Assembly (NCBI GenBank): GCA_938084055.1 | Contig: CALKDK010000059.1 | Location: forward strand, 1 to 59,917 | Source: an uncultured Luminiphilus sp. | GTDB lineage: Bacteria > Pseudomonadota > Gammaproteobacteria > Pseudomonadales > Halieaceae | Length of the DNA stretch: 59,917 nucleotides | Reading direction: 5' to 3' | In this document: piece after piece, positions 20,148 through 48,040 of the stretch | How positions within the stretch are numbered: the stretch's first letter is position 1 | How the letters are laid out: each line of letters begins with the position of its first letter | The notes under the pieces: model-generated | Told to the model about the DNA's origin: nothing | Database searches by the model: none | What the model saw: the letters and a program-made list of their open reading frames with translations, nothing else | Program-made: the position numbers and the translations under genes

Positions 20148-20435
20148 ATGTCAAATGATGCGATCGAGGCAGCGGTGTTTCGTCGTCTGGTTGCCCATCT
20201 CGACGGCAGGAAGGATGTCCAGAATATTGACCTGATGGTGCTCGCGGGATTCTGTAGAAACTGCCTTTCCAAGTGGTATGTGGCGGAAGCAGAGAAGCGG
20301 GGTCAGGACGTAGAGCTTGAGGCTGCCCGCCAGCATATTTACGGTATGCCCTATGCCCAGTGGAAGGCCGAGTATCAGACTGAGGCGACACCGGAACAGC
20401 AGGCCGCTTTTATGGCGCAAAATCAGTCAGGCTAG
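20148..20435 (+). CDS. DUF1244 family protein
   Basis: A 95-residue protein of a conserved proteobacterial family with no established function. The diagnostic segments are DVQNIDLMVLAGFCRNCLSK (about residues 24-43) and IYGMPYAQWKAEYQTEA near the C-terminus. The paired cysteines in FCRNC could bind a metal, which is inference. The ATG at 20148 follows the Nudix gene stop by three bases and a GAGGCG box, so the two are probably co-transcribed. Its last nine bases overlap the convergent isochorismatase-like gene. Confidence 0.85.
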   Translation: MSNDAIEAAVFRRLVAHLDGRKDVQNIDLMVLAGFCRNCLSKWYVAEAEKRGQDVELEAARQHIYGMPYAQWKAEYQTEATPEQQAAFMAQNQSG

Positions 20436-21026
20436 CATTCCGATAGCCGTCTCCAATTCGACCACGTCGGCGTACTTGGCGTTGAGGTCGTAGAGATTAG
20501 CCTTATGTGCACTGCCGTTCCTGTCACCCACCGCCTGTCTGGGCACCACCACTCGATATCCATACTGCAACCCATCCACCGCGGTGGCACGCACGCAGCC
20601 GCTTGTCGTGAGTCCGGTTACGACCAGTGAATCCACTTCAAGCTGCTGGAGCTGCGTATCGAGTGATGTTCCGTGGAAAGAGCTTGCATGTAGTTTCTCC
20701 ACGATATAATCGCTGTCCATAATAGGTAAGCGCGGATCAAACGTTACCCAGGGTGACTCGGGCGTCAGCAACTCCAGCGCAGGTAGCCGATTTCGAAAAA
20801 CCCGGGCATGGTCACGGTGCCGAAATATGACGGTGGTAAGGAATACCGGTAACTTACGAGAGTGAAATTCATCCATGAGGCGAACATTGGCCTCGACCAC
20901 ATCGGTCGCCTCAGTGCCCAGGGGACAGTCAGGGTCAGTAAAGCCCTTGACGATGTCGACGACCACCAGCGCGGGTTTGGCTCCCAGTCCCAGCGCCCGA
21001 CGTTCAAGGCTTCTTTCGTTATCCAA
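20427..21026 (-). CDS. Isochorismatase-fold amidohydrolase (N-carbamoylsarcosine amidase-like)
   Basis: Cysteine hydrolase of the isochorismatase superfamily, acting on amide or carbamoyl C-N bonds. The catalytic triad can be placed: Asp in VVVDIVKGFTD, Lys in IVEKLHASSF and Cys in GLTTSGCVRATAVDGLQYG. The TTSGCVRA form of the Cys loop is that of N-carbamoylsarcosine amidase and maleamate amidase rather than of true isochorismatases. Two starts are possible: GTG at 21032, or TTG at 21026 with an AAGGA box 7 bp upstream; I use the latter (199 residues). It marks the left edge of the catabolic region; a closely related protein is encoded at 32201. Confidence 0.85.
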   Translation of the reverse strand: MDNERSLERRALGLGAKPALVVVDIVKGFTDPDCPLGTEATDVVEANVRLMDEFHSRKLPVFLTTVIFRHRDHARVFRNRLPALELLTPESPWVTFDPRLPIMDSDYIVEKLHASSFHGTSLDTQLQQLEVDSLVVTGLTTSGCVRATAVDGLQYGYRVVVPRQAVGDRNGSAHKANLYDLNAKYADVVELETAIGMLA

Positions 21027-21032
21027 GATCAC

Positions 21033-21438
21033 ATCCTTTTGTGTGCGTGCGGGGGTGTTGGTTCAATCAAGGGCAACCGTACCATCCACTTGGTAGGAGC
21101 GGTATGGGTTTTACATTCTTGATACCGCCCTCGCATTAACTGTTTCAGGACAGGCCCGCCACTGTGCAGTTGAAGCGGCGCGGTCCCGTAGTTGCCAGAG
21201 CGCGTGCTGCCATTTGCAATGTAGTGATCTGTGGCTACCTTTCCTGACCAGCACGAGGGTCGTTTTCGATTTCCAATGTCAGGTAGTAGTGGCGTGGACT
21301 GTATGCCTATGTGACACTCAGAGTCTAAATTTTTGGCCCAAATGACCGCGCGGCCAGTATAGATGTTGCTCTGTTATCAGAGGCCCGGGCCTCAGTGGGT
21401 GGCGTCATGCAGAAGCAATTACGAGGAGAAAGTAGCAC
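21033..21438. other. Non-coding interval with a 14-bp perfect palindrome
   Basis: About 400 bases separate the divergent genes at 21026 and 21439. I see no convincing coding sequence. A perfect palindrome GAGGCCCGGGCCTC lies at 21380-21393, 45 bp before the lyase start, and a weak TATAGA -10-like box at 21358. Either could serve the HMG-CoA-lyase-like operon, but the support is thin. No copy of the AAATGTnCGnACATTT operator is present here. Confidence 0.35.
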
Positions 21439-22335
21439 ATGGTTGATCGCATCCTGATCAAGGAGGTGGCCCCACGGGATGGGTTGCAGGCCCAGTCCAG
21501 ACATTTGACCCTGGAGCAGCGTCAAAGGCTGATTGAGACGCTTGCGGTGACCGGGGTGCCGGAGTTGGAAATCGGCAGTTTCGTATCACCAAAAGCTGTG
21601 CCGCAAATGGCAGGCACTGATGTTTTGGCGGCGCAGTTGCCCGATGCTGATGTGGCCTATTCCGTGCTGGTCCCCAATATGAAGGGTTACGAACTCGCTC
21701 TCGCGGCCGGCATGCGCAGTCACGCAATAGCGATTTCTGCTACCGAGCAGATGAACCAGAACAATATCAGGAAGGGACTCGAAGATACTTTTCTGATGGC
21801 TGAAGATATTCTCGAGCGTGCCCGGGAGGATGGGGTGGATATCCATGTCTATCTGGCGGTGTCTTTTGAGTGTCCCTACGAGGGTCCAGTGGCACCCGAG
21901 ACGGTACTGGCCCAGGTTGAGCGCCTGATGCGCTGCTCGCCAGCTCGCTTGATGATTGCCGACACAATTGGCGCTGCCCATCCACAACAGGTGGCTAATC
22001 TGATGCGGGAATTGGTCGCGCGTTATGGTCCCGAGGACCTTGGCTGCCACTTCCATGATACGCGCGCGATGGCAATCGCAAATGTCTACGCGGCGATTGA
22101 GGCGGGCGTACGCCAGTTCGACAGTTCCGCTGGAGGCCTGGGTGGGTGCCCTTTCGCGCCCGGGGCCAAAGGTAATGTAGCCACTGAGGATGTGGTTCTG
22201 CTCTGTGAATCGATGGGCTTTGCAACCGGGGTCAACATGCCCCGGCTGCTCGAAGCCGTTGCATTGCTCAGTGACTACATCGGTACCCCGCAGGGTGGAC
22301 GCAGCCACTACTGGCTGACGCGAGAGAGCGCCTGA
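21439..22335 (+). CDS. Hydroxymethylglutaryl-CoA lyase-type enzyme
   Basis: HMGL-like TIM-barrel lyase, expected to cleave 3-hydroxy-3-methylglutaryl-CoA or a similar hydroxyacyl-CoA into acetyl-CoA and a keto acid. Seen motifs are EVAPRDGLQAQ (catalytic Arg-Asp), SVLVPNMKGYE, the metal-binding CHFHDTRAMA and the Cys loop GGLGGCPFAPGAKGNVATED. Length is 298 residues, normal for bacterial MvaB. A GAGGAGA box precedes the ATG. It is followed after nine bases by a nitroreductase gene. No leucine or mevalonate pathway genes are nearby, so the natural substrate may belong to the adjacent catabolic region. Confidence 0.88.
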   Translation: MVDRILIKEVAPRDGLQAQSRHLTLEQRQRLIETLAVTGVPELEIGSFVSPKAVPQMAGTDVLAAQLPDADVAYSVLVPNMKGYELALAAGMRSHAIAISATEQMNQNNIRKGLEDTFLMAEDILERAREDGVDIHVYLAVSFECPYEGPVAPETVLAQVERLMRCSPARLMIADTIGAAHPQQVANLMRELVARYGPEDLGCHFHDTRAMAIANVYAAIEAGVRQFDSSAGGLGGCPFAPGAKGNVATEDVVLLCESMGFATGVNMPRLLEAVALLSDYIGTPQGGRSHYWLTRESA

Positions 22336-22344: not shown

Positions 22345-23016
22345 ATGAGGGTCTCGGAGGCTATCGCAGGTCGACAGAGCGTACGCGCGTTTGATAACCA
22401 GCGTACGGTCTCCAGGGAGATCATCCTGAGCATTTTGGCGACCGCTGCCCGGGCCCCCTCCGGATCAAATATTCAACCCTGGCATGTCTATGTCGCTACC
22501 GGTGCGAGCAAGGAAAATATCACCCAGGCGTGTTCGGAGCGCTATTTATCAGGTGATGAGGGGGATGCGGAGTATCACTATTACCCCAGGAATTGGCGTG
22601 AGCCCTATATTGGGCGTCGACGCCAGACGGGCTTTGGACTTTACGGTCTGTTGGGTATCGAAAAAAATGACCTGGAGGCTGTACGGGGCTACCGGGTACA
22701 GAACTATCAGTTTTTTGGCGCCCCAGTCGGTTTATTTTTTACCATCGATCGCGACATGGAACTGGGTAGTTGGATGGACTACGGAATGTTCCTGCAGAGT
22801 GTCATGCTCTCAGCACGAGAGCAGGGTCTGGAAACCTGCGCCCAGCAGGCGTTCTGCCCCTACCAGGATTCGATCATGCCGCTACTGGGAGCGCCCGAGC
22901 AGCAAATGCTGGTGTGCGGCATGTCCCTGGGTTATGCCCTGGAGGGCGCGCTCATCAACAGTTACCGCACACAGCGTTTGGACGCGCAGGATTTTACCCA
23001 GTTCATAGGAGAGTGA
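22345..23016 (+). CDS. Nitroreductase family flavoprotein
   Basis: FMN-dependent NAD(P)H oxidoreductase of the nitroreductase fold. The 223-residue protein has the N-terminal RQSVRAFDNQ (FMN phosphate contact), ARAPSGSNIQPWHVYV and a C-terminal GMSLGYA. The physiological substrate cannot be read from the sequence. In the same operon as the HMG-CoA-lyase-like gene. Because two reduced-flavin-dependent enzymes are encoded nearby (27988 and 39313) without a recognisable flavin reductase, a reductase role is possible but unproven. It resembles nitrobenzoate/NfnB-type members more than RutE. Confidence 0.85.
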   Translation: MRVSEAIAGRQSVRAFDNQRTVSREIILSILATAARAPSGSNIQPWHVYVATGASKENITQACSERYLSGDEGDAEYHYYPRNWREPYIGRRRQTGFGLYGLLGIEKNDLEAVRGYRVQNYQFFGAPVGLFFTIDRDMELGSWMDYGMFLQSVMLSAREQGLETCAQQAFCPYQDSIMPLLGAPEQQMLVCGMSLGYALEGALINSYRTQRLDAQDFTQFIGE

Positions 23017-23019: not shown

Positions 23020-24168
23020 TCACCCGGCCCTGGCGACCATTTGTTTGGCGATAATCATCCTCTGGATCTCATTGGTGCCCTCGCCGATGCAGAGCAGAGG
23101 CGCATCCCTGTAAAAACGCTCAATTTCGTATTCAGGGGAATAGCTGTAACCACCGAAAACGCGCATGGCATCGAGACTGTTTTTTACCGCCGCCTCAGAA
23201 GCAAAAAACTTTGCCTGACCAGCTTCCAGGTCGCAGCGTTCAGATCGGTCAAATTTGCTGGCCGCCTGCTCAACCAAAAGTGCAGCGGCGGCGGCGCGGG
23301 TGGACATTTCGGCGAGCTTCAGTTGAATCGCCTGATGCTCAGCTATGGCCTTGCCGAAGGTTTTTCTTTCCATGGCATAGGCCAGCGCCATATCGGTCGC
23401 GCCCTTGGCCATGCCGGCGCCTCGCGCGGCAATGTTAATACGCCCAAGCTCCAGACCACCGGCGACCTGCTGGAAGCCACGACCCTCTTCGCCACCGATC
23501 AGGTTATCAACGGGTACCCTGAAATCCTCAAAGATCAACTCGGCGCTGTCGATCGCCCGATACCCCAATTTTTTAATCTTTTTCCCTACCGTGAAGCCCT
23601 TGCCCTTTTCACAGAGAAACAGGGACATGCCGCGATGTCGAGGCTCAGCTGTTGGGTCGGTTTTGGTAAGAACCGCAAGGCAGTTGCCCTTGATGCCATT
23701 GGTGATCCAGGTTTTTGTGCCATTGAGAACGTAGTGCTCTCCATGGCGCTTTGCCTGTAGACGAATACCCTGTAGATCGGAACCGGCGTCGGGCTCGGTC
23801 AGGCCAATGCCGCCACGTAGCTCACCGCTGGCAAAGCGGGGCAGGAAATATTCTTTTTGCGCCTCGGTTCCCCCGCGTTCGACGCAGTTGGCCATGATGA
23901 GGTGGGAATTAAAGATGCCCGAGGGGGCCATCCAAACCTGGCAGATTCGCGAGACGATTTTGGCATAGGTTGTCGCACTCAGACCCAGGCCACCGTACTG
24001 CTCAGAAATGGTGGCTCCAAAGAGTCCCAGTTGCTTCATTTGCTCGACAAGCTCACTGGGGTACTCATCCGCCTGGTCAAACTCCTTTGCAATGGGGCGC
24101 AGTTCCTGCTCGACCCACTTATCGATGGTCGCCAAAATTTGCTGTTCGGTGTCGTGGTCTGTTGCCAT
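23020..24168 (-). CDS. Acyl-CoA dehydrogenase
   Basis: FAD enzyme that introduces an alpha,beta double bond into an acyl-CoA. The 382-residue protein has the normal family length and motifs: GLTEPDAGSDLQGI and TKTWITNG in the middle domain, GYRAIDSAELIFEDFRVP, ERKTFGKAIAEHQAIQ, VFGGYSYSPEYEIERFYRD and the C-terminal IGEGTNEIQRMIIAKQ with the expected catalytic Glu. It follows the MaoC gene by 42 bp on the minus strand and presumably shares its promoter. Oxidation followed by MaoC hydration would be a two-step beta-oxidation-like module. Confidence 0.93.
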   Translation of the reverse strand: MATDHDTEQQILATIDKWVEQELRPIAKEFDQADEYPSELVEQMKQLGLFGATISEQYGGLGLSATTYAKIVSRICQVWMAPSGIFNSHLIMANCVERGGTEAQKEYFLPRFASGELRGGIGLTEPDAGSDLQGIRLQAKRHGEHYVLNGTKTWITNGIKGNCLAVLTKTDPTAEPRHRGMSLFLCEKGKGFTVGKKIKKLGYRAIDSAELIFEDFRVPVDNLIGGEEGRGFQQVAGGLELGRINIAARGAGMAKGATDMALAYAMERKTFGKAIAEHQAIQLKLAEMSTRAAAAALLVEQAASKFDRSERCDLEAGQAKFFASEAAVKNSLDAMRVFGGYSYSPEYEIERFYRDAPLLCIGEGTNEIQRMIIAKQMVARAG

Positions 24169-24210: not shown

Positions 24211-24693
24211 TCAGGGGCGTTTCGGAACGAGTATCTGTCGTTCAAAAACGCACACTTCAACGTCGTCTTGGTTGATGCCGCGCGTGAGTACGGTCACGAT
24301 ACCCGCGTCTGGTCGGGATTTTGATAATCGCTTGCCCAGTACCTCCGTGTTCGCATAGAGCGTGTCACCCGGGAACACGGGCTTCGTGAGCTTTATGTCT
24401 TTCCATCCCAAGTTGGCTACGGCTTTGGCGCTGACGTCAGAGACGCTCATGCCAACGATAATTGCCACGGTGAGCGGACTGGCGACCAGCGGCCTGCCGA
24501 ACTCGGTTTCGGCTGCATACTCCTCGTCAAAATGTAGGGGATGGGTATTCATGGTCAGCAGGGTGAACCAGGCGTTATCCTGCTGGGAAATAGTGCGCCC
24601 CGGCAAGTGGTGATAAATATCACCCTCACAGAAGTCTTCAAAATACCGTCCGGGCATCGCCGCATATTTTTCCATCACCGATTTTTTACTCAC
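24211..24693 (-). CDS. MaoC-family enoyl-CoA hydratase
   Basis: Single hot-dog-fold hydratase for an unsaturated acyl-CoA. The 160-residue protein contains the MaoC region TMNTHPLHFDEEYAAETEFG and the conserved RPLVASPL. The usual GDxNPxH hydratase motif is modified to MNTHPLH, as I recall for mesaconyl- or itaconyl-CoA-type hydratases. The GTG at 24693 has a GAGGAGG box 7-9 bp upstream and is preferred to GTG 24720. It is divergent from the GntR gene and shares the operator at 24775-24790. With the CitE-like lyase at 25599 and CoA transferases it fits a CoA-activation, hydration, cleavage sequence, which is inference. Confidence 0.86.
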   Translation of the reverse strand: MSKKSVMEKYAAMPGRYFEDFCEGDIYHHLPGRTISQQDNAWFTLLTMNTHPLHFDEEYAAETEFGRPLVASPLTVAIIVGMSVSDVSAKAVANLGWKDIKLTKPVFPGDTLYANTEVLGKRLSKSRPDAGIVTVLTRGINQDDVEVCVFERQILVPKRP

Positions 24694-24774
24694 CTCAACA
24701 GCCTCCTCAACGGGCAGCACGTTTTTTTTCCGTATCGTCCAAGCTTGTCACCACATTCGGAGAAAAACTCGGTA

Positions 24775-24790
24775 AAATGTTCGGACATTT
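24775..24790. promoter_or_regulatory. Predicted GntR operator, site 1 (MaoC/gntR divergent promoter)
   Basis: AAATGTTCGGACATTT, a near-perfect 16-bp palindrome. On the plus strand it is fused to a -10-like TAAAAT (24773-24778) pointing towards the regulator gene, so binding would occlude that promoter. It is the copy at the candidate regulator's own gene, consistent with autoregulation. Confidence 0.7.
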
Positions 24791-24813
24791 CCCCCAGAGT
24801 AACAAGATTCGGT

Positions 24814-25596
24814 ATGCCGCCCAATGCATCCACACCAAAAACACTGAAAGACCTTCCACTGTATCGGCAAATCTCTGACAGTTTGTTGGGTGGTATTCGC
24901 GAAGGATTGTTCCCGGTGGGGACTTTCCTGCCAGGCGAGCTCGATTTGATTGAGCGTTACAGCAGCAGCCGGCACACGGTTCGTGAAGCGCTGCGCGTGC
25001 TTGAAGACATGGGAATCGTAAAGCGTCAGCGCGGGCGGGGGACACTGGTCACCTCCACCGAGGCTCGCCCCGCCTTTGTCCAGTCTGTACGCGACCCGAA
25101 GGAGTTGTTCAGCTACCCTGAAAACAGCACTTTCCGGGTTCTTTCTGAGGGAAAAATTGGGGATGATGATCGGTGGCCTGCCAGAATTGGCCATGACGTT
25201 GACCGGGACTGGGCCCGCATTTCGGGTTTGAGAACCCTGGCGAACGGCAGTCCTTTCTGTTGGACAGATATCTTTGTGTTGCCGGCTTATGCCCCGATTG
25301 CGCAGCAATTGGGGCGGGCGGGTGTTCCCGTCTACGAACAGATTGCTGCAACCTATGATGAAACCGTGGCCAGTATCAGTCTCGAGATTTGTGCGGGCAG
25401 CCTGACGGGCGCTCGTGCGCTAGCACTCAAGGTGGATGAGGATACTCCCTCCCTCGTGCTGTACAGGCGGTATTGCGGTAACGGCGGTCGTCTCTTTGAG
25501 GTCTCGGTAACCGAACACCCCGCTGAAAGTTTCAGCTTTGCACTGGAGTTTAACCGCGGCTGGCAGTCCGCAGAGCATTGGTCCTGGAGCAAGTAG
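24814..25596 (+). CDS. GntR-family transcriptional regulator, HutC/UTRA type
   Basis: Likely ligand-responsive repressor of the catabolic genes. Residues about 12-75 form the GntR winged helix (LPLYRQISDSLLGGI, then HTVREALRVLEDMGIVKRQR and GRGTLV). The remainder resembles a UTRA effector domain (VYEQIAATYDETVASISLEI, LVLYRRYC). The start is the ATG at 24814; in-frame sequence further upstream would extend through the divergent promoter and is rejected. The protein is 260 residues. It is followed by the CitE-like gene two bases after its stop, so it is probably co-expressed with an enzyme of the pathway. Seven copies of one palindrome lie beside the genes around it. Its binding to them is inferred. 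Confidence 0.9.
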   Translation: MPPNASTPKTLKDLPLYRQISDSLLGGIREGLFPVGTFLPGELDLIERYSSSRHTVREALRVLEDMGIVKRQRGRGTLVTSTEARPAFVQSVRDPKELFSYPENSTFRVLSEGKIGDDDRWPARIGHDVDRDWARISGLRTLANGSPFCWTDIFVLPAYAPIAQQLGRAGVPVYEQIAATYDETVASISLEICAGSLTGARALALKVDEDTPSLVLYRRYCGNGGRLFEVSVTEHPAESFSFALEFNRGWQSAEHWSWSK

Positions 25597-25598
25597 TC

Positions 25599-26495
25599 AT
25601 GTCCCACCGAGAAATGGCTGTCACGCGCAGTTTTCTTTTCACTCCTGCCAATCACCCGCGCCGGGTCATTAAGGTTTTTCAGGTGGGCGCAGATGCTGTG
25701 ATTCTTGATCTGGAGGATGCTGTCGCGATCGCTGAGAAGGCGTCCGCGCGGGCTGATGTCGTTACAGCATTCTCCGGCTCGGAGCACAAGTGCCTGCACT
25801 ATGTGCGCATTAATGGTGTGGACACTGAATTTTGGCGGGATGACCTCAAGGCGACCGTAGGACCCTGGCTGGACGGGGTCGTGCTGCCCAAGGTGGAATC
25901 AAGCGCGGCTCTCCGCGAAGTAGAAGCGGTCCTGGCCTCCGCAGAGCGCGAGGTGGGTTTGGCGGTAGGTCAACTCGATCTTCTGCCCATTATTGAGACG
26001 GCTAAGGGCGTTGAGGCTGCTGCCGAGATCGCCACAGCCGGATCGAGAATTCGTCGCTTTGCATTTGGGGGTGGCGATTACACCCTTGATCTTGACTACG
26101 AATGGACGGCGGATGAGGACGTGCTCGCCTATGCACGGGCACGGCTTTCTCACGCCTCGCGCCTGGGTAATTTGCAACCCCCTGTGGACACGGTGGTCCT
26201 GCAGATAAACGATGATGAGCGTTTTACAGACTCGGCACGCCGAGGGCGAAAATTTGGCTTCGGCGGCAAGCTGTGTATTCACCCCAACCAGGTGCCTCTG
26301 ACCCACAGCGTCTTTTCGCCATCTGCGGCAGAGATCGACCATGCCAGAGCGGTTGTCGCCGCCTTTGAAGCGGCCGAAGCCAGTGGCTCTGCGTCCATCC
26401 AGCTGGACGGCTACTTTATTGATTATCCGATTGTCTATAAAAGCCAACGTATTTTGGCATTGGCGTCGCTGTTGGAGCAGCAAGAGCTTTCGTGA
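25599..26495 (+). CDS. CitE-like lyase (HpcH/HpaI superfamily, malyl/citramalyl-CoA lyase type)
   Basis: Mg-dependent TIM-barrel lyase that breaks or makes a C-C bond in a hydroxyacyl-CoA. The 298-residue protein has RSFLFTPANHPRRV (substrate-binding Arg), GADAVILDLEDAVA with the metal-binding acidic residues, VVLPKVESSAAL and FGGKLCIHPNQV, the CitE/CLYBL signature. Citramalyl-CoA or malyl-CoA are the likely classes of substrate, giving pyruvate or glyoxylate plus acetyl-CoA; which one cannot be read here. The start at 25599 is preferred over GTG 25578, which overlaps the regulator gene. An internal ATG at 25614 is also possible. Confidence 0.88.
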   Translation: MSHREMAVTRSFLFTPANHPRRVIKVFQVGADAVILDLEDAVAIAEKASARADVVTAFSGSEHKCLHYVRINGVDTEFWRDDLKATVGPWLDGVVLPKVESSAALREVEAVLASAEREVGLAVGQLDLLPIIETAKGVEAAAEIATAGSRIRRFAFGGGDYTLDLDYEWTADEDVLAYARARLSHASRLGNLQPPVDTVVLQINDDERFTDSARRGRKFGFGGKLCIHPNQVPLTHSVFSPSAAEIDHARAVVAAFEAAEASGSASIQLDGYFIDYPIVYKSQRILALASLLEQQELS

Positions 26496-37217: not shown

Positions 37218-37230
37218 GGGGAGCGAGATA

Positions 37231-40383: not shown

Positions 40384-40755
40384 TCAGCCGTCGTTTTCTA
40401 CCTGATCAACTACGGCTCGATAGTCCTGCTCATCCCTATCTTCAAGGTCTTCCAGCTCGCCAACAATGATGCGGGTGACCTCCTTGAAGATGGCTCTGTG
40501 CCGCGCCGCCCGTTCTTCCATGTCTGAGTCTGTGAGCTGGTAGGTTTCTATATCGCTCGCCGAAAACAACCCCTTGGCCCTGGCGACCCGCTCCAGCGTG
40601 TCGAGACGATCTCGAGTGACAGACAGTTCCCCAGTCAGTGCCATTACCATCGAAAGTAGCCGGTCGACATCGGGATCAGAAAAGTAGAAAGGCCGCTTAC
40701 CCTTGGCTTTCCTCTGCAGGGTAACCTCGTCGGGACCTTCGCTCACTTCTGGCAC
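40384..40755 (-). CDS. Small hypothetical protein paired with a methyltransferase
   Basis: I do not recognise this 123-residue, mostly helical and highly charged protein. It contains a heptad-like region ELSVTRDRLDTLERVARAKG (about residues 42-61) preceded by DPDVDRLLSMVMAL, and an acidic C-terminus. A coiled coil is likely and no membrane segment is seen. Its GTG start overlaps the end of the methyltransferase gene by 13 bases, so the two are translationally coupled and probably work together. It carries no operator copy upstream. Confidence 0.7.
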   Translation of the reverse strand: MPEVSEGPDEVTLQRKAKGKRPFYFSDPDVDRLLSMVMALTGELSVTRDRLDTLERVARAKGLFSASDIETYQLTDSDMEERAARHRAIFKEVTRIIVGELEDLEDRDEQDYRAVVDQVENDG

Positions 40756-41903
40756 CCGTACACAAACCAGACGCCACCCCCACCAAAGTCACCCCCCTGA
40801 AAGGTGTTACTGCGTTGGGTTTCCTGAAAGGCGCTGGGCACCATAATCTGGATGGGCGTGTGGGACTGAAAGCCCGCGTCGCGGGCCAGGGCCTCGAGGT
40901 CAAGCAGATGGCTTTTGCGCCAGAAGGGTTCGTTATTGTTCTCGCTGTCCCAATCAAAGATGAAAGTGTCAAACGGCTCCATACCCTCGTAGGGGGGCGT
41001 CTCAACATGGAGCATCATGCCGCCTGGCTTAAGCACGCGGTGACACTCGCGAATGACGTTCTTGATGGCAGCGGACGAGGTCTCGTGTAACAGGATGTGT
41101 GACACCACCAGATCAAAGGAGTTGTCCTCAAAATCGGTGGACTCGGCATTTTGCTGGGAGAAATGAACCGGGAGTCCCATAGAGGACGCCCGAGCATGGG
41201 CGTGGCGTAGCATGGGTGCAGCCACATCAATCGCGTGGACCTCGGCACCCTCGAAGCCGCTGGCGTAGGGCAGGGTGCTGTGGCCTACCGCGCACCCCAT
41301 ATCCAGAATGCGTGTTGGTTTAAAATCGGGGTGCTCCTGCTTCAGCCATGCGACTGTACTGTCTCCCATGTCAGCATTGTTGACGCCCATCTGACCCATG
41401 GCATAAATGTAAACCGCGCGGTCGTAGATAGCACCCTGGGCGACGTCGTTATCAATGTACTCGGTATGATAGCCGCCGGGCTGGCAGTGAATATCGACCG
41501 CCGTATGGTACGAAGGAATTTGCAGGTCCGGGTCTAGCCGCAGGCTGCCAATTTTAGGGGTCGCTGCAGCTTGGGCCGCCAGGTCTGCAATAGCCCGCTC
41601 CACAGGTATTTGTGCCGCTGACCACATCATTTCCTGGCTGGTTCGAAGCAGCGAGCTCCATGCCTGGTAATGACTGTCCTGCTTCATAACTTGCCCCACC
41701 TCCTGAATGGATTGGGGTTCCCGCTGGTGCTCAGCAACGAAGCGCGGCTTGGCCCTTTTTTCGTAGGCTGTTTTCAATCCCGGGTGTAGTGCGGTGACCA
41801 GGTGTTCCTTGAAAGAACGCACAAAGTGCTGCCGCGCAAGTTCGTCATGACTGGTCTCTGGTAGGGCATCGTGGACATGTTGTTCTTTGTAGGCGATTGA
41901 CAT
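40743..41903 (-). CDS. Class I SAM-dependent methyltransferase with long N-terminal extension
   Basis: The C-terminal part (about residues 190-330) is a Rossmann methyltransferase domain: RILDMGCAVGHSTLPYA (SAM-binding motif I), VHAIDVAAPMLRHAHA, DFEDNSFDLVVSHILLHE and HRVLKPGGMMLHVETP. About 190 N-terminal residues form a helical region that I do not recognise, including FVRSFKEHLVTALHPGLK. Total length is 386 residues. Small-molecule methylation is likely and the acceptor unknown. It is coupled to the small coiled-coil-like protein downstream. Convergent with the RutA-like gene and divergent from the SDR gene. Confidence 0.85.
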   Translation of the reverse strand: MSIAYKEQHVHDALPETSHDELARQHFVRSFKEHLVTALHPGLKTAYEKRAKPRFVAEHQREPQSIQEVGQVMKQDSHYQAWSSLLRTSQEMMWSAAQIPVERAIADLAAQAAATPKIGSLRLDPDLQIPSYHTAVDIHCQPGGYHTEYIDNDVAQGAIYDRAVYIYAMGQMGVNNADMGDSTVAWLKQEHPDFKPTRILDMGCAVGHSTLPYASGFEGAEVHAIDVAAPMLRHAHARASSMGLPVHFSQQNAESTDFEDNSFDLVVSHILLHETSSAAIKNVIRECHRVLKPGGMMLHVETPPYEGMEPFDTFIFDWDSENNNEPFWRKSHLLDLEALARDAGFQSHTPIQIMVPSAFQETQRSNTFQGGDFGGGGVWFVYGCQK

Positions 41904-42107
41904 GATTGCAGTCCTGCTCGTGGCATGGGCGAAGGTACCATGCCGAATATAGCCTAGTGGGGTCGGGCCGCCAATGGTGATTGCATGCCAGGACTTGCAG
42001 TTCCCTGCGCTCGGATGTGTTGGGTTTGAAGCGTTCTGGCTTGCCCTTTAACGATGCACAGTGCACCTTTGGCATATTTTCAGAACGAGTCTTAAACGGG
42101 GGTGGGT

Positions 42108-42863
42108 ATGAGAGAGCAACTTGCTTTGGTTACAGGGGCGGGTATTGGTTTGGGCCGCGCAACGGCATTGGCACTCGCGAACGCGGGTTACCGGGTCATA
42201 GTGACTGATGTATTGGAGGTGGAAGGACGGGAAGTGGTCGCTGAGATCGTTAATAGCGGTAGGCTGGCAGAGTTCCATGCCCTCGATGTTACTGACAGCG
42301 GTGCCGTCAACAGGGTTGTCAGTGCGGTAGAGGCCCAACACGGGCCCGTTACGGCGCTGGTTTTGAACGCGGGTATTGCCCGCACGCTACCCCTTGCGAG
42401 TTTGGAGGATGCGGCCTGGGATGAAACGATGAACGTCAATCTCAAAGGCATGATGCGCGTTATGCGCGCGGCTATTCCGGGTATGCAGACTGCAGGCGGT
42501 GGGGCAATCGTCTGTCTTTCCTCAATTGTGGGTGCTGTCCTTGGGTGGTCAGAGCATATTCCCTATGTCGCGAGTAAGGGGGGGGTTATGGGATTGGTGC
42601 GCGCCGCCGCTTTGGAGTTTGCCGGCCAGGGCATTCGTGTCAACGGGATTGCCCCGGGGGTCATTCGTTCTGCACAAACTCTCGATCCCGTGAATTCACT
42701 GGGCGAAGATGGGCTGGCTGCCTTTGCCGAAACCGTACCTCTGGGCAGGGTGGGCAATCCAGAAGATATTGCCGATGTCGCCGTATTTCTATTGTCTGAC
42801 AAGGCCCGCTACCTAACCGGACAGGTGATCCCGGTGGACGGTGGTACCACCATCAGCCTGTAG
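42108..42863 (+). CDS. Short-chain dehydrogenase/reductase
   Basis: NAD(P)-dependent oxidoreductase of the classical SDR/FabG type. The 251-residue protein has the cofactor motif VTGAGIGLGRATALALA, LVLNAGIAR, the catalytic Ser in CLSSIVGAVLGW, the YVASKGG Tyr-Lys pair and a C-terminal GQVIPVDGGTT. The ATG at 42108 is preferred over GTG 42102 because of a GGGGG box just upstream. It stands alone, followed by a bidirectional terminator. Substrate unknown; oxidation of a hydroxyacid or alcohol intermediate of the catabolic region is possible. Confidence 0.9.
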   Translation: MREQLALVTGAGIGLGRATALALANAGYRVIVTDVLEVEGREVVAEIVNSGRLAEFHALDVTDSGAVNRVVSAVEAQHGPVTALVLNAGIARTLPLASLEDAAWDETMNVNLKGMMRVMRAAIPGMQTAGGGAIVCLSSIVGAVLGWSEHIPYVASKGGVMGLVRAAALEFAGQGIRVNGIAPGVIRSAQTLDPVNSLGEDGLAAFAETVPLGRVGNPEDIADVAVFLLSDKARYLTGQVIPVDGGTTISL

Positions 42864-42979: not shown

Positions 42980-45544
42980 TTAGAAGCTGTATTGCACTTC
43001 TACACCGGCACGGCGTTGGGTTCCGGGGCTGATAAAGGCACCGCCGAATTCAGGCGCAAGAATAACCTCGGCGATGAATTCCTCGTCGGTGAGGTTACGG
43101 GCAAAGGCCGTGATGCTCCACTTTTCACCGCGCAGGCCCAGGCGCAGGTTGGTCAGGCCGTAGCCATCGACCTGCGTTACGTCATAGCTGGCGGGCGGAC
43201 CCCCGAACAGAGTGGCTGGGACCACGTCATCCTGCACCGTGTGGTACCAGGTATCACCCTGATAGGAGTACTCAAGGCGACCGAACAGTTCAAAGGCGCC
43301 AATGGGCTGCGTGTACTGAATGGAGGCGTTGGCAGTGAACTCTGGATTATTTGGCACCTCATTGCCGGCGGTGTAAGGCCTCAGTGCATTCACGTCGATC
43401 TCGCCATCGACCATAGAGTAGCCCGCATCGAAGCGCAGTCTGTCAGTGATGGCCCAGGCGGCACTGAGCTCAAAACCCTGGAGCGTAACCTCATCGATGT
43501 TCTCCGCTGTTCTCAGCAGGCCGAAGGGGCCCACGAAGAACTCGAAGAACTGCATGTCGTCGACTTCCGTGTAGAACACGGCGCCGTTCAACTGCAGATT
43601 GCCATCAAGAAGCCCTGAACGGAAACCCAGCTCAAAGGAACTGGACGTTTCTTCCCGTATTACGTCCGGGGGAGCAACCAATTCCGCGCCACGGTTGACC
43701 AGATAGAAATTAACGATCTGATTGGCGCCTGAGTTATTGAACCCGCCCGCCTTGAAGCCAACACCCCAGCTGCCATACACCGTAGTGGAATCGGTGGCAT
43801 CCCAGGTCAGGCTGATCTTAGGCTGGAACTCATCAAAAGTTTCGCTGTTACCCGGAATGCTGGAGCTGACGGTGAAATTGTCAAAGTTAACAAAGCCCGG
43901 ATTCAGAGGAGAGCCACTCAGTGGCTGCCCATTCAGGGTGCACTGGCCGCCGCAGTAGTCGATATAGTTTGACAGTGCGCCGTCTGCAGGGGAGGGCACG
44001 TTGTTGGTGACATCGCGTTCCTCGGAGTCGTAGCGCAGTGCTACCGACAATTCCACCGCTTCGGTAATGTCGTAGTTAATTGAACCGAACACTGCCATAA
44101 CCGTCGTGTCAAAGGTGTCGTTCACCATCGCGTCGGTGAACTGGTTGTAGATTGTGGTCGGTACGTTGCTGGCGGCGTTGGGCCAGCTGCTGCCGTCGTC
44201 ACGCAGTTGCGACACAGCCTGGTAGCGCTCAATTTCAAGGTAGTACAAGCCCGCCTGCCAGCGCAGCCGCTGGTCGGAATTCGACGTCAGTTGGACCTGG
44301 AAGCTCAGATCCTCCTGAAAGCGCTCCTGGTACTGGTACCCGTCGCAGGTCGTTGGGCTGTAGGGCGGCAGGACCTGTGCGCCGGGCGCGGATCCGAAAA
44401 TAAAGGTGGGAGCTGGAAGCGGTGTTACACCCCCGGGCACCGCCGGGGTGTAGGAGGGTGTCAGGGCATCCAGAGAGCTGATGCAGGCGTCAGTGCCTCC
44501 GTAGAACCCAAAGGCACCGGAGGTTCCGTCAGCAATAAAGGTGTCCTCCGTATCGCTGTAAAAACCCCAGGCCGTCAGGGTAGCCCAGTCCATGTCCCAG
44601 TCAGCTTTGACAGAGAACTCCAGCACATCCTGTTCGTTAACCGGCCTTACGTTCGATGGGAACACAAAGTCATGAGTGTTAACGTCCTGATAAAACGACT
44701 CAGAACCCGGCGTTCCAAAGGGAACGAAGGGAGGTAACGCAAATCCAGCATTGAAAGTAATGGCCGCAGCTTCAGACTTGCCGTAGCGAAGCTTCGTGTC
44801 TATCGTCAGATCGTCGGTTGGGTCAAATACCAGTCTGCCCTGCACCGAATAGTTTTCGGCGTCGTCCACGACCTTATCGTTGAGAAATGAGTTGCTGTAG
44901 AACCCGTCCGTGGTGCGGTAATCGGCTGTCAGGCGGCCGGCAACATTGTCACCCAGTGGTCCTGCCACTGTAGCAAGGCCGGTGTAGGTGCCGTCTTCTG
45001 CAATGCTGGCCCGCACGTCGCCCTCAAATTCCTGTGAGGGTCGTTTCGTTGACATGATAATGGCCCCCGCAGCAGCGGAGCGGCCATACAAAGCACCCTG
45101 TGGGCCCTTGAGAATTTCGATCTGCTCGAGATCTGCATACTCACGGTTAAAGGCATAGGTATTGATGTAGAGGACGCCGTCAATGATCAAAGCAAAGTTG
45201 GTTTCTGCGTCGCGGGCGCCGTTGATACCGCGAATCGATATCGACGAGTCGCCCGTTTCAACGGTATTGACGAAACTCACCCCCGGCGTCTGGGAGATGA
45301 AATCCTCTGCGCGCTGGATGCCCATATCGGTGATCTGGCTCGATGTGAAGGCGGTCACCGTACTCGGGACGTCCTGCAGTGACTCGCTTCTGGCTCGAGC
45401 GGTCACCACAACTTCTTCAAGCTGAGCCTGGGCAATATTGGGCAAGGTCAATCCACCGCCGGCAGCGGTAAGGGCCGCAAGGGCTAGTGATACCCTGTTT
45501 TTAAGGTTGGCAGGTTTGTTTTGGCTTGCATTTTTCTTGTCCAC
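42980..45544 (-). CDS. TonB-dependent outer-membrane receptor
   Basis: Active uptake channel of the outer membrane, driven by TonB-ExbBD. The 854-residue protein has a signal peptide ending near Ala40 (NIAQA/Q), then LEEVVVTARARSESLQDVP leading into the plug domain (ALIIDGVLYINTYAFNR, LKGPQGALYGRSAAAGAI). A 22-strand-type barrel follows, ending in an aromatic VEVQYSF. The GTG start at 45544 follows GGAGG. Receptors of this class often carry substrates too large or scarce for porins. Operator site 7, about 105 bp upstream, suggests it belongs to the catabolic regulon and may import its substrate. Confidence 0.93.
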   Translation of the reverse strand: MDKKNASQNKPANLKNRVSLALAALTAAGGGLTLPNIAQAQLEEVVVTARARSESLQDVPSTVTAFTSSQITDMGIQRAEDFISQTPGVSFVNTVETGDSSISIRGINGARDAETNFALIIDGVLYINTYAFNREYADLEQIEILKGPQGALYGRSAAAGAIIMSTKRPSQEFEGDVRASIAEDGTYTGLATVAGPLGDNVAGRLTADYRTTDGFYSNSFLNDKVVDDAENYSVQGRLVFDPTDDLTIDTKLRYGKSEAAAITFNAGFALPPFVPFGTPGSESFYQDVNTHDFVFPSNVRPVNEQDVLEFSVKADWDMDWATLTAWGFYSDTEDTFIADGTSGAFGFYGGTDACISSLDALTPSYTPAVPGGVTPLPAPTFIFGSAPGAQVLPPYSPTTCDGYQYQERFQEDLSFQVQLTSNSDQRLRWQAGLYYLEIERYQAVSQLRDDGSSWPNAASNVPTTIYNQFTDAMVNDTFDTTVMAVFGSINYDITEAVELSVALRYDSEERDVTNNVPSPADGALSNYIDYCGGQCTLNGQPLSGSPLNPGFVNFDNFTVSSSIPGNSETFDEFQPKISLTWDATDSTTVYGSWGVGFKAGGFNNSGANQIVNFYLVNRGAELVAPPDVIREETSSSFELGFRSGLLDGNLQLNGAVFYTEVDDMQFFEFFVGPFGLLRTAENIDEVTLQGFELSAAWAITDRLRFDAGYSMVDGEIDVNALRPYTAGNEVPNNPEFTANASIQYTQPIGAFELFGRLEYSYQGDTWYHTVQDDVVPATLFGGPPASYDVTQVDGYGLTNLRLGLRGEKWSITAFARNLTDEEFIAEVILAPEFGGAFISPGTQRRAGVEVQYSF

Positions 45545-45650: not shown

Positions 45651-45666
45651 ACATGTACGTACAATT
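45651..45666. promoter_or_regulatory. Predicted operator, site 7 (TonB receptor)
   Basis: ACATGTACGTACAATT, two mismatches from AAATGTnCGnACATTT, with an ideal central ATGTACGTACA palindrome. It lies upstream of the minus-strand TonB receptor gene and overlaps the last two bases of the preceding CoA transferase gene. Confidence 0.5.
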
Positions 45667-46837
45667 ACGGCAGAAGTTCCAATATCTCCCTACGCTGGGC
45701 TTGGGTCAAGTCTAAATCTGTGAGGATCTGCGCGGTATTTGCGCCTACTGGGGCAAGTCGGGGGTCAATATCAGCGGGTTCCCTTGCGAACTTAAGCGGC
45801 GTACCGATGTGATCGTTGCCAGCGCCATCCTGCCAGCGCATGGCCCGCTCCCGGACATGATCCGCTGACCAGGCCTCCTTCAGGTCGAGTACAGGGCTCC
45901 AGCAGATGTCCCGGCCCTCAAACCAGCGTTCCCATTGTGCCAGCGTTTGGGTTTTGAAGGTGTTTCGGAGAAATCTGATGGCGGGTTCGTGGGCTGTACC
46001 CGCGGGCCCGGTCACGGCTTCGATAAACTCCGGATGCGCCAGGCCTTCAAACAGTGCGGTGACGAACTTGTGTTCGCCACCCCCCAGTGCCAGGAATCGG
46101 TCGTCAGACGTGCGGTAGATGTTGAGCATTGCGCCACCACCGTGGGTTCGCTCGTGGAATCGGTTGGGGGCCTGGTCCCCCGCAAATACGGGGCCGAGGA
46201 TATTGGGTGACGCCGCCAGCACAGCTTCATGCATACTCACATCCAGGTAGTCACCCTCGCCGGTAGTTTCACGACGAAACAGGGCCATGAGAATACCCGA
46301 CAGGGCTGACCACGAGGACAGCATATCGGAGATGGCCACACCAATGATGGCGGGGCCACTGTCATCCTCTGGTGAGCGTGTCAGGCTCAAGACGCCCGAT
46401 GCCGCGACCGTCGCCGTGTCGTGGGCGGGCTTGTCCCGCCAGGGGCCTGATTGACCAAAAGCTGAAATCGAACACATCACCATCCTCGGGTTGAGGGCGT
46501 GCACGGCATCTGGCCCGAACCCAAGGCGGCTAATAACGCCGGGGCGAAACGCCTCGACCAGCACATCAGCGGATTTGATCAGTGCCCGCAGCGCTGCTTT
46601 CCCCGACTCGGACTTGAGATCCAGGGCAATACTTTCCTTGCCGCGCTGGGTGTTGCGAAACATGACGGTCTCGCCCCCCTGTTGCCAGGGAAAGGCGGTA
46701 GCGGAGCGCGTGGGCTCCGGGGCTCGTGGATTTTCGACCTTGATCACCCGTGCGCCGTGGTCAGCCATCAATTGGGTTGCTGCCGGGCCCGGCAGGAAGA
46801 GGGACAGGTCCAGCACCGTAATGCCATCAAGCTTCAT
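45665..46837 (-). CDS. CaiB/BaiF-type CoA transferase (second)
   Basis: Family III CoA transferase of 390 residues: LDLSLFLPGPAATQLMADHG, VIKVENPRAPEPTRS, DLKSESGKAALRALI, VEAFRPGVISRLGFGPD. At the position of the usual catalytic Asp it reads LDVSMHEAVLAAS, with Glu. It lies nine bases downstream of the third CoA transferase gene in the same direction, and the two may act as a heteromer or on sequential acids. Together they precede the TonB receptor gene. Substrate unknown. Confidence 0.88.
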   Translation of the reverse strand: MKLDGITVLDLSLFLPGPAATQLMADHGARVIKVENPRAPEPTRSATAFPWQQGGETVMFRNTQRGKESIALDLKSESGKAALRALIKSADVLVEAFRPGVISRLGFGPDAVHALNPRMVMCSISAFGQSGPWRDKPAHDTATVAASGVLSLTRSPEDDSGPAIIGVAISDMLSSWSALSGILMALFRRETTGEGDYLDVSMHEAVLAASPNILGPVFAGDQAPNRFHERTHGGGAMLNIYRTSDDRFLALGGGEHKFVTALFEGLAHPEFIEAVTGPAGTAHEPAIRFLRNTFKTQTLAQWERWFEGRDICWSPVLDLKEAWSADHVRERAMRWQDGAGNDHIGTPLKFAREPADIDPRLAPVGANTAQILTDLDLTQAQRREILELLP

Positions 46838-46846
46838 CGGACGACC

Positions 46847-48040
46847 TCAGTTGGTGACGCCCTCAGATGCCAAGGCATCCAGTGCTGCAGCGTCCAGACC
46901 CAGAAGGTCGCCAAGAATCTCTGCGTTGTGGGCGCCGATCTGTGCGCCGGGCCAATCAGTCCTTCCGGGTGTTTCTGAAAGTTTGGGTGCGATTGCGGGA
47001 ATTTTCAGTGGGCTCCCGTTAACGTCAACCGACTCAAACATTCCCCGCGCGTTGTAGTGGGGATCCGTCATCATGTCCTCGACGCTGTAGATGGGCCCAA
47101 CCGGCACCCGCACCGCCTCAAGTTGGTCAATAATCTCCTGTGAACTGTGGGCAGCACACCAATCGGCAAGCGCTTGATCGATGGCGTTTTGGTGGATGAT
47201 GCGTCCCTGATTGTGTTCCATCTCGGGATTTTCGGCCATGTCCTCGCGCCCGGCCGCTTTCATAAGGCGTTTGAAAATGGAATCTCCATTGCCGCCGATG
47301 ACGACGTGTTTGCCGTCCTGACAGAGGTAGGTATTGGTCGGAACAATGCCGGTGATGGTTGTACCTGATGGTTCCCGGATCACGCCCGCTCCGTCGTACT
47401 CGGGGACGATGCCTTCCAGCAGATTGAAAACCGCCTCATAAAGTGCCACGTCAACGACCTGGCCCTCACCGGATTTATGCCGTTGAATGACGGCCAAAAG
47501 TACGCCGAGTGCGGCATGGATAGCCGCGGCTGTATCGCCGAGTGAAATGTTGGGTCGCACCGGAGCTTTGCCAGGCTCTCCGTTGATATAGCGGAAGCCA
47601 CCATAGCCTTCAGTGACCGATGCGTAACCGGGCTTGGCGGAAAATGGCCCGGTCTGGCCGTAGCCCGAAATCCTGGCAAATATGATGCCGGGATTAGCGG
47701 CCTTCACACGGTCGGGTCCCAAACCCCAGTCCTCCATCGCTCCCGGCCGGAAGTTTTCTACCACCACATCGGCTTTGCAGAGCAGTTCAAAAGCCAATTC
47801 CTGCCCTCGCTCAGTCTTGAGGTCTAGGGTGACACTTTTTTTGTTACGCGCGAGGGAGTGGTACCAGAGCGACATGCCGTCCCGGACCTCTCGCCACTGT
47901 CGGATGGGATCACCGGTCGGGGGCTCGACCTTGATCACCTCCGCGCCGAAATAGCCGAGAATGGTGCCTGCGAAGGGCCCCGCAAGCAGTTGCCCCATTT
48001 CGACAACCCGTAATCCCTCGAGTGGACGCTCTCCCGCCAT
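46847..48040 (-). CDS. CaiB/BaiF-type CoA transferase (third)
   Basis: Family III CoA transferase of 397 residues: LRVVEMGQLLAGPFAGTILG, VIKVEPPTGDPIRQWR, LDLKTERGQELAFELL, VENFRPGAMEDWGLGPD, ISGYGQTGPFSAKPGY and VVDVALYEAVFNLLEG. The residue matching the catalytic aspartate of formyl-CoA transferase is Glu in LYEAV. The ATG has a GGAG box 6 bp upstream. It heads a two-gene operon with the second CoA transferase. No copy of the shared operator lies upstream of it, so its membership in the regulon is unsupported. Confidence 0.88.
   Translation of the reverse strand: MAGERPLEGLRVVEMGQLLAGPFAGTILGYFGAEVIKVEPPTGDPIRQWREVRDGMSLWYHSLARNKKSVTLDLKTERGQELAFELLCKADVVVENFRPGAMEDWGLGPDRVKAANPGIIFARISGYGQTGPFSAKPGYASVTEGYGGFRYINGEPGKAPVRPNISLGDTAAAIHAALGVLLAVIQRHKSGEGQVVDVALYEAVFNLLEGIVPEYDGAGVIREPSGTTITGIVPTNTYLCQDGKHVVIGGNGDSIFKRLMKAAGREDMAENPEMEHNQGRIIHQNAIDQALADWCAAHSSQEIIDQLEAVRVPVGPIYSVEDMMTDPHYNARGMFESVDVNGSPLKIPAIAPKLSETPGRTDWPGAQIGAHNAEILGDLLGLDAAALDALASEGVTN

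Follow-up and report, generated by a model that had tools for sequence, protein, structure and literature searches.

The window analysed here is a stretch of 59,917 nucleotides (contig C59, CALKDK010000059.1) from the metagenome-assembled genome (MAG) of a Luminiphilus-like member of the Halieaceae, a genome of 2.92 Mb that is 82.75% complete and whose nearest named relatives, as judged by its RutA-like protein, are Luminiphilus and other Halieaceae. Positions 20427 to 48040 (27.6 kb) are occupied by a putative catabolic block of 24 genes with no housekeeping genes interspersed (Table 1). The families were assigned by Pfam and NCBIfam profile scans with curated cut-offs, and the nearest solved chains were ranked by sequence E-value. 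An earlier sequence-only reading had proposed an undescribed degradation pathway for nitrogen heterocycles at this site, and every family that it named is present: three isochorismatase-fold proteins, an HMGL-like lyase, an acyl-CoA dehydrogenase (CoA, coenzyme A), a CitE-like lyase, MaoC, PrpD, an HpaB-fold protein, TauD, an alpha/beta hydrolase, three CoA transferases, HyuA, HyuB, a RutA-like protein and a TonB receptor. In addition to that list, the block encodes a nitroreductase, a GntR regulator, an EamA transporter, a methyltransferase, a 123-amino-acid (aa) protein and a short-chain dehydrogenase (SDR). Gene spacing suggests that CitE–PrpD–AbfD-like, HyuA–HyuB–RutA-like, iso3–abH, iso2–EamA–TauD and CaiB2–CaiB3 are organized as operons. 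The true start of the GntR gene is probably near 24.8 kb because the listed open reading frame overlaps MaoC, and the ATG at position 37231 is the likelier start of HyuB. Promoter and terminator scans of positions 32000 to 42200 gave results at chance level.

Table 1 Genes of the putative catabolic block, with positions in the window and the profile or structural matches behind each family call
Gene product	Position	Strand	Matches and motifs
iso1, isochorismatase-fold amidase, N-carbamoylsarcosine amidase type	20427..21032	-	PF00857; 26st E 6.6e-38; 1nba E 1.3e-34; D-K-C motifs
HMGL, lyase like 3-hydroxy-3-methylglutaryl-CoA (HMG-CoA) lyase	21439..22335	+	NF004283 310.4 bits (cut-off 246)
Nitroreductase-family flavoprotein	22345..23016	+	PF00881; below all NCBIfam cut-offs
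Acyl-CoA dehydrogenase	23020..24168	-	PF00441/02771/02770
MaoC-fold hydratase, nearest itaconyl-/mesaconyl-CoA hydratases	24211..24720	-	PF19315 86.4 bits, PF01575; RipB/Ich 207.4 bits (cut-off 340)
GntR/UTRA regulator	24541..25596	+	PF00392, PF07702, from residue 107 on
CitE-like C-C lyase	25578..26495	+	PF03328; citE 229.4 bits (cut-off 443.4); RipC/Ccl 162.7 bits (cut-off 375)
MmgE/PrpD-family (de)hydratase or related enzyme	26540..27994	+	PF03972, PF19305; IDS-epimerase E 6.4e-33, cis-aconitate decarboxylase E 6.6e-31
HpaB-fold flavoprotein, 4-hydroxybutyryl-CoA dehydratase (AbfD) branch	27988..29550	+	1u8v E 4.1e-90
TauD-family dioxygenase	29597..30442	-	PF02668 251 bits
EamA-family transporter	30513..31436	-	PF00892
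iso2, isochorismatase-fold amidase, nearest RutB/biuret hydrolase	31436..32113	-	RutB 85.8 bits (cut-off 377.95); biuret amidohydrolase 83.6 bits (cut-off 370); solved biuret hydrolase and RutB among best chains
iso3, isochorismatase-fold amidase, carbamoylsarcosine/maleamate type	32201..32818	+	26st E 7.6e-31; 3ot4 E 5.9e-30
abH, generic alpha/beta hydrolase (PcaD/RutD-like)	32847..33650	+	PF00561; PcaD 80.9 bits, RutD 77.9 bits, both below cut-off
CaiB1, family III CoA transferase	33804..35042	-	PF02515; best NCBIfam succinate--glutarate CoA-transferase 221.9 bits (cut-off 750)
HyuA, ATP-binding subunit, hydantoinase/lactamase type	35112..37217	+	PF01968/05378/19278; DVGGTFTD, DMGGTSTD, GAQPGP motifs
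HyuB, metal-site hydrolase subunit	37201..39258	+	PF02538 475.8 bits; HxxD, FGH motifs
RutA-like flavin monooxygenase, separate clade	39313..40371	+	TIGR03612 373.8 bits (cut-off 498.3); 6sgl E 2.5e-93
123-aa protein	40384..40755	-	No Pfam or NCBIfam match
S-adenosylmethionine-methyltransferase-fold protein with N-terminal region of its own	40743..41903	-	PF13649 from residue 199
SDR	42102..42863	+	PF13561
TonB-dependent receptor	42980..45544	-	PF00593, PF07715
CaiB2, family III CoA transferase	45665..46837	-	PF02515; best NCBIfam CoA:oxalate CoA-transferase 179.2 bits (cut-off 522)
CaiB3, family III CoA transferase	46847..48040	-	PF02515; succinate--glutarate 247.7 bits (cut-off 750); succinyl-CoA:mesaconate 214.7 bits (cut-off 700)

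The limits of the block, as proposed by the sequence-only reading, correspond to a real genomic unit. UBA4452 (G060) carries a syntenic block flanked by dnaE–NUDIX and greB–M23, and the syntenic block of HTCC2080 (G012) has the same start after dnaE–NUDIX and reaches the contig end within the TonB gene. In two near-complete congeners (G035, 98%; G049, 100%), dnaE, NUDIX, gcvP, greB and M23 are contiguous, and the gap between the aligned parts of NUDIX and gcvP is 308 and 329 bases, respectively, so that the site is empty. Searches of these two genomes, which covered RutA-like and HyuB and not the other block genes, found no RutA-like gene in either and no HyuB of the block subfamily in G049; despite its empty site, G035 has a 65% identical HyuB elsewhere in the genome, together with CaiB, HMGL, iso1 and TonB. 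Thus, the site carries either the whole block or nothing, and part of the functions can sit elsewhere. A comparison of the window with HTCC2080 over 22 of the 24 genes gives nonsynonymous divergence (dN) of 0.03–0.28 with synonymous sites saturated or nearly so (synonymous divergence, dS, of 1.68 for GntR); CaiB2 and CaiB3 are left out because the HTCC2080 contig stops before them and their matches were another CoA transferase. Such low dN with near-saturated dS indicates purifying selection and argues that the block is no product of chance. The G+C content of the block (56–58%) is similar to that of the flanks and family scans of the 24 proteins found no mobile-element match, which gives no support to a recent insertion; an old gain of the block cannot be distinguished from an old loss in the congeners.

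HyuA retains both ATP motifs and a GxxPGP motif, and HyuB retains HxxD and FGH, so that the pair has the Pfam domains, the ATP motifs and the metal-site motifs of the oxoprolinase/HyuAB family. The motifs of HyuA match those of CapA, and the HxxD and FGH motifs of HyuB resemble His99, Asp102 and His124 of CapB, as given in the accessible portion of PMC8453981 (PMC, PubMed Central). These ATP and metal-site motifs make ATP-driven hydrolysis of a ring amide the firmest of the predicted steps. The scores of HyuA and HyuB for the CapAB caprolactamase equivalogs (553.4 and 222.8 bits) lie below the cut-offs of 1000.

The sequence-only reading had joined HyuAB with amidase, CoA-transferase and lyase genes, and these also accompany HyuAB in many relatives. 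The neighbourhoods of 49 HyuB loci were compared with those of 52 control loci around RutA, with thresholds set after the matches were seen, stretches of 4–40 kb as compared with about 21 kb for most controls, and related genomes of which some contributed two loci. CaiB is found in 35 of the 49 HyuB loci and in one control; the corresponding numbers are 28 and 5 for HMGL, 27 and 3 for an amidase of the iso1/iso3 type (carbamoylsarcosine-amidase-like), and 8 and 1 for a PrpR-like regulator. TonB (22 loci), abH (14), the methyltransferase (13) and the 123-aa protein (10, each with the methyltransferase gene) have no counterpart in the controls. The clearest operon is that of G408, in which a PrpR-like regulator, TonB, CaiB, HMGL, HyuA, HyuB, iso1, LeuC and LeuD lie in a row. 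Since PrpD and AbfD-like (3/49 each), RutA-like (4/49), and CitE and MaoC (6/49 each) are seen in few HyuB loci, they fall outside the wide HyuAB core.

Other genes recur beside HyuAB. The methyltransferase and its 123-aa partner are found together with HyuAB in distantly related lineages (L149, L152, L156, L158 and others), and tandem methyltransferase copies occur in the alphaproteobacterial loci L159 and L162. A membrane protein of 220–250 aa, whose likeness among loci was judged by eye, lies near HyuAB in L159 (13225–13941; no Pfam match at E 1e-5), L126, L124 and L125 and is not seen in the window block. PrpR-like sigma-54 regulators stand beside HyuAB in L121, L020, L183, L186, L187, L189, L192 and L196, and the window block has GntR instead; the L121 regulator, the only one of them scanned, scores 407.4 of 499.2 bits to PrpR.

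The RutA-like protein belongs to a clade of its own. A genome-contig scan, of which the best 80 of 100 relatives were kept, gave 28 RutA-like loci and 52 RutA loci (L050–L101), and among these the full-length relatives are either 53–89% or at most 44% identical to the window protein. In a tree built by a quick method, from which two of the 28 RutA-like loci were excluded as broken or partial copies, 27 RutA-like rows (window included) and 53 RutA rows lie on opposite sides of one branch with a Shimodaira–Hasegawa-like approximate likelihood ratio (SH-aLRT) support of 99. The second group is taken as RutA because 44 of its 52 loci have a RutB-like neighbour. The alignment has 79 columns common to both groups at 95% or more (7 of them gap columns), including N115, W120 and E124, which we take to be oxygen- or uracil-site positions of RutA, and 18 columns that differ consistently between the groups, 15 by residue and 3 by gap. 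Because of these conserved and consistently differing columns, the protein is likely to be a monooxygenase of RutA type whose pocket has changed, and not RutA itself; its score also lies below the cut-off of the RutA equivalog TIGR03612. In RutA, an N5-linked oxygenated flavin attacks the amide (PMC8234197, in its accessible part, together with general background).

In the six alphaproteobacterial RutA-like loci (L033, L034, L038–L041), a molybdenum hydroxylase of three subunits and a class III aminotransferase are encoded near the RutA-like gene, and a Ureidogly_lyase-family protein is also found near it in alphaproteobacteria. An SDR is present in four of the six; this relative of the block SDR (57–60%) adjoins the RutA-like gene in L039–L041 and lies about 4 kb away in L038. 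A glycolate-oxidase-like flavoprotein is also encoded near the RutA-like gene in four of the six loci. The alphaproteobacterial setting of molybdenum hydroxylase, aminotransferase and flavoprotein may represent an alternative form of the upstream steps. In four Binatota loci, the RutA-like gene is adjoined or closely accompanied by an acyl-CoA-dehydrogenase-fold protein, presumably of the flavin-monooxygenase kind. In one MAG (L035, FRAM18_bin324), CaiB1, HyuA, RutA-like, SDR and TonB are fragmented, which reflects assembly errors or decay.

The RutA-like clade tracks the HyuB of the block at the genome level. A genome-wide search at E 1e-150 or lower covered the genomes of 16 of the 28 RutA-like loci, leaving out eight near Luminiphilus loci, L032 (whose assembly was already in), two Binatia loci and one deltaproteobacterial locus. 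HyuB of the block subfamily is present in 15 of the 16 genomes, with at least 63% identity for the best copy, as against 14 of 398 genomes drawn from the phylum (own genome included; p about 1e-18), although the genomes are not statistically independent of one another and some of those with RutA-like belong to phyla that the draw did not cover. The numbers are 12/13 and 13/397 when Halieaceae are removed, and a draw from the class gives 7/369. RutA-like and HyuB co-occur in three phyla (Gamma- and Alphaproteobacteria, Myxococcota and Binatota), and since they lie on different contigs in alphaproteobacteria, their co-occurrence is not a by-product of neighbourhood. The conservation of the genes together in relatives, by which the sequence-only reading was to be judged, is thus seen both in the synteny of the block and in this co-occurrence.

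iso1 and iso3 have the isochorismatase fold and a D-K-C motif, which we take to be the catalytic triad of isochorismatase-fold amidases, as expected of an N-carbamoylsarcosine amidohydrolase; the solved chains 26st and 1nba, the best for iso1, are of this enzyme. For iso3, the scores of 3ot4 and 3uao, the latter presumably a maleamate amidohydrolase, are close to those of the carbamoylsarcosine type (107.8 vs 110.8 bits), and for iso1 the score of 3uao is lower (96.7 vs 133.2 bits). As iso3 resembles both amidase types about equally and iso1 is nearer to the carbamoylsarcosine type, HyuAB may yield either an N-carbamoyl compound or an amidic acid. The substrate could be a ureide ring (a pyrimidine, a hydantoin or a fused relative), which the RutA-like protein would open beside N-CO-N and HyuAB would open as a hydantoin, with the amidases removing carbamoyl groups. 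The best matches of iso1 and iso3 would suit this route, as would RutA as the nearest solved relative of the RutA-like protein, the retention of N115, W120 and E124 in both clades, the PuuE-type proteins near RutA-like in L036 (114.1 of 424.6 bits to PuuE), L037 and L042, and the Ureidogly_lyase-family protein and molybdenum hydroxylase of the alphaproteobacteria. However, a ureide route has no need of LeuCD/PrpD, HMGL, MaoC and CitE enzymes, the RutA-like clade differs from RutA consistently at 15 residue positions, and family scans of the block show no RutC or RutF partner. We regard a ureide as quite unlikely.

The remaining enzymes fit a dicarboxylate, because CaiB1 and CaiB3 are nearest to succinate–glutarate CoA transferase and are accompanied by MaoC and the CitE- and HMGL-like lyases. 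MaoC, CitE and the CoA transferases resemble itaconate/mesaconate enzymes in type but score under the curated cut-offs, including those of the itaconate RipB and RipC equivalogs for MaoC and CitE. HMGL exceeds its curated cut-off and is assigned by profile to the HMG-CoA lyase subfamily; its substrate may be HMG-CoA or citramalyl-CoA, as (R)-citramalyl-CoA lyases are HMGL-like. Two labels of the sequence-only reading stand in part. The HpaB-like protein has the HpaB fold, and its nearest relative is 4-hydroxybutyryl-CoA dehydratase; the RutD-like protein is an alpha/beta hydrolase and falls far short of RutD (77.9 bits against 238.5). Among the iron–sulphur ligands of AbfD, which we take to be C99, C103, H292 and C299, two of the four aligned positions are replaced in the AbfD-like protein (C103 to Y, C299 to A). 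In the homologue segments that cover these positions, C100 and C105 are conserved without exception (10 of 10), as is C297 (9 of 9), so that a shifted cluster site is possible. Relatives of this protein with 69–71% identity occur in seven other genomes; their surroundings, covered for six of the seven, contain no other block genes except generic acyl-CoA dehydrogenases and gave no substrate clue.

We consider it an even chance that the block is an island of genes for the breakdown of a small nitrogen-containing ring compound with a cyclic amide, either an imide or a lactam. In favour of this are the gene families and motifs, the synteny of the block and its empty site in congeners, the purifying selection on 22 genes, the co-occurrence of RutA-like and HyuB, the enrichment of CaiB, HMGL, amidase, TonB, abH and methyltransferase genes around HyuB, the G408 operon and the LeuC copies beside HyuAB in four genomes. 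A cyclic imide or lactam is ranked above a ureide because imides yield dicarboxylates directly. The observed genes, motifs, conservation, filled and empty sites and co-occurrence allow an order of reactions to be inferred, together with every substrate and product in it. The TonB receptor would carry the ring compound, or a larger compound from which it derives, through the outer membrane, and the RutA-like protein, the AbfD-like protein and TauD would oxidise it, or one ring amide would be opened oxidatively in the manner of RutA. HyuA would use ATP to phosphorylate the ring amide in its lactim form, and hydrolysis by HyuB would give an open-chain amide, from which iso1 and iso3 would release ammonia to leave a branched dicarboxylate. 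After loading of CoA by the family III CoA transferases, a hydroxyl group would be set up by acyl-CoA dehydrogenase and MaoC in the case of saturated acids, or by PrpD here and LeuCD in some relatives in the case of unsaturated free acids. The CitE- and HMGL-like lyases would then cleave a C-C bond to give an oxo-acid and an acyl-CoA.

Several observations weigh against this assignment. No substrate-specific marker is found in the block, no dedicated flavin reductase is shown in it by family scans, and the nearness of iso1 to carbamoylsarcosine amidases rather than maleamate-type ones would suit a ureide better. Pseudonocardia G817, the one exception among the 16 genomes, has a RutA-like gene without this HyuB. 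Within the Halieaceae, where HyuB is present in 33 of 61 genomes and RutA-like in 4 of 61, the two are not significantly linked (4/4 vs 29/57, p 0.12). None of the six HyuB-bearing genomes of the class draw outside the Halieaceae has the RutA-like clade; at a threshold of E 1e-60, five have no RutA-family match, and all that the sixth has is a RutA of 43% identity. A genome with RutA-like seems to have HyuAB as well, yet HyuAB needs no RutA-like. LeuCD is found in only 6 of the 49 HyuB loci (0/52 controls). Four of these (G011, G052, G038 and G408) do speak for the assignment, as each genome has two or three LeuC copies of which one lies near HyuAB, indicating an extra LeuCD hydratase; in G428, LeuCD sits in an apparent leucine operon, and the sixth locus is that of G077 (L120). 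G060 and G034 have two LeuC copies, none within the HyuB stretch.

The division of the block in relatives also weighs against it, as some genes may then serve another substrate. Pseudohaliea rubra (G014) and L. syltensis NOR5-1B (G807) each have two separate HyuAB sets, one with CaiB, HMGL and iso1 and the other with CaiB1, CaiB2, a GatA-type amidase, GntR, iso3, abH, CitE, MaoC and acyl-CoA dehydrogenase. The RutA-like gene of L031 and L032 lies opposite a CitE–PrpD–AbfD-like set, with no HyuAB in the stretch. G030, on a 14.5-kb contig ending after HyuB, has iso2, iso3, abH, CaiB1, HyuA, HyuB, CitE, MaoC and acyl-CoA dehydrogenase without PrpD or AbfD-like, and in G004 TonB follows HyuB with no RutA-like between; no RutA-like match is found in either genome (70% and 88% complete, respectively). 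Modules that stand apart in other genomes are thus brought together in the Luminiphilus block. This can be explained by a catabolic supercluster, in which two to four independent routes share one site through co-regulation or shared ecology, for example a HyuAB–amidase–CoA route and a separate CitE–PrpD–AbfD-like route with RutA-like. The differing amidases, lyases and CoA transferases of the two HyuAB sets, the L031/L032 pairing, the core without RutA-like in G030 and G004, the CaiB–HMGL–HyuAB–iso1–TonB set of G035 away from the empty site, and the redundancy of three CoA transferases and two lyases for a single route are all consistent with it. In contrast, within the genus the site holds the entire block or is empty, and 15 of the 16 genomes with the RutA-like clade also have this HyuB. 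We regard a supercluster as somewhat unlikely. A single pathway employing all parts of the block is nevertheless not established, because relatives split it into modules. The sequence-only reading had proposed a cyclic amide or imide that ends as a branched dicarboxylate and uses all parts; the itaconate/mesaconate-like MaoC, CitE and CoA transferases fit its end product, and the splitting in P. rubra, L. syltensis, G030 and G004 does not support the use of all parts in one pathway.

A more specific version of the cyclic amide route is a long shot. The block may serve fragments of tetrapyrroles (chlorophyll, haem, bilins), namely alkyl-substituted maleimides and pyrrolinones such as methyl ethyl maleimide and hematinic acid, although no block gene proves it. 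LeuCD-type hydratases act on cis-alkene dicarboxylates, and this version is suggested because a hydrolysed maleimide is such a compound. HyuAB and the amidases would open maleimides to alkylmaleates, PrpD or LeuCD would hydrate them, CaiB would charge the product, and the HMGL- or CitE-like lyase would split it to pyruvate and an acyl-CoA; the RutA-like protein, the AbfD-like protein and the alphaproteobacterial molybdenum hydroxylase would oxidise pyrrolinones upstream. The accessible part of PMC7318184 lists such maleimides and hematinic acid among chlorophyll products; in the leaf samples described there, hematinic acid was detected and maleimides were not, the latter resting on older reports.

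As the sequence-only reading had held, known pathways explain only parts of the block: the overlap of each with it is limited to one or a few types of enzyme, and the equivalog cut-offs for RutA, RutB, RutD, CapAB and RipB/RipC are not reached. A described pathway in rearranged form (riboflavin/lumichrome, nicotinate, caprolactam, indoleacetate or itaconate) is thus conceivable from the shared types, but the CapAB and itaconate scores argue against it, and we hold it to be highly improbable. The creatinine/N-methylhydantoin route shares HyuAB beside a carbamoylsarcosine-amidase-like gene; it is not known to need a branched carbon skeleton or a CoA or lyase step. The Rut pyrimidine pathway has in common a RutA relative and the RutB-like iso2, but the RutA-like protein of the block is of a separate clade, and neither iso2 (85.8/377.95 bits to RutB) nor abH (77.9/238.5 bits to RutD) reaches the cut-off. 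Itaconate/citramalyl-CoA degradation (Rip/Ich/Ccl) shares the CoA transferase, MaoC hydratase and CitE lyase types, which in the block score under the equivalog cut-offs and are joined to ring-opening enzymes. In the 2,3-dimethylmaleate branch of nicotinate fermentation, an alkylmaleate is hydrated by a LeuCD-type hydratase and then cleaved by a lyase, like the steps proposed here, but this lyase is of the isocitrate-lyase family and CoA is not known to be involved. In the anaerobic indoleacetate pathway, a family III CoA transferase follows ring opening, the other downstream enzymes are different, and no RutA-like protein or amidases are known. Lactam-ring opening by the hydantoinase-like IaaCE, of HyuAB type as in the block, is proposed for that pathway, which PMC8453981 mentions. 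The caprolactam pathway of Pseudomonas jessenii, as far as it is set out in the accessible parts of PMC6061476 and PMC8453981, shares ATP-dependent ring opening of HyuAB type and, as proposed downstream steps, a family III (oxalate-type) CoA transferase and an acyl-CoA dehydrogenase; it transaminates the amine, whereas the block has amidases, HMGL/CitE lyases and a RutA-like protein. Riboflavin/lumichrome degradation was considered for its RutA, its amidases and products like acetoacetate and was dropped, since the published lumichrome route uses P450, Rieske and extradiol enzymes, with "hydantoinase" and "CoA" absent from its main text (PMC12746152, as available), and no P450, Rieske or extradiol family is found in the block.

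The enzyme families of the block are known and HyuAB-initiated ring catabolism is of a known kind. Consistent with the sequence-only reading, we found no description of this gene combination among the literature matches listed, which comprise openly licensed PMC papers only. Should such a route exist, it would be an undescribed recovery of carbon and nitrogen from a ring compound, and marine bacteria would meet this compound often enough to keep a large block under purifying selection. As the core gene HyuB is present in 33 of the 61 Halieaceae genomes drawn, the compound may be common at sea. Named carriers are HTCC2080, with the block up to the contig end, and Pseudohaliea rubra DSM 19751 and Luminiphilus syltensis NOR5-1B, with modules of it. 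The island places the separate RutA-like clade in a defined catabolic setting, so that its chemistry becomes testable.

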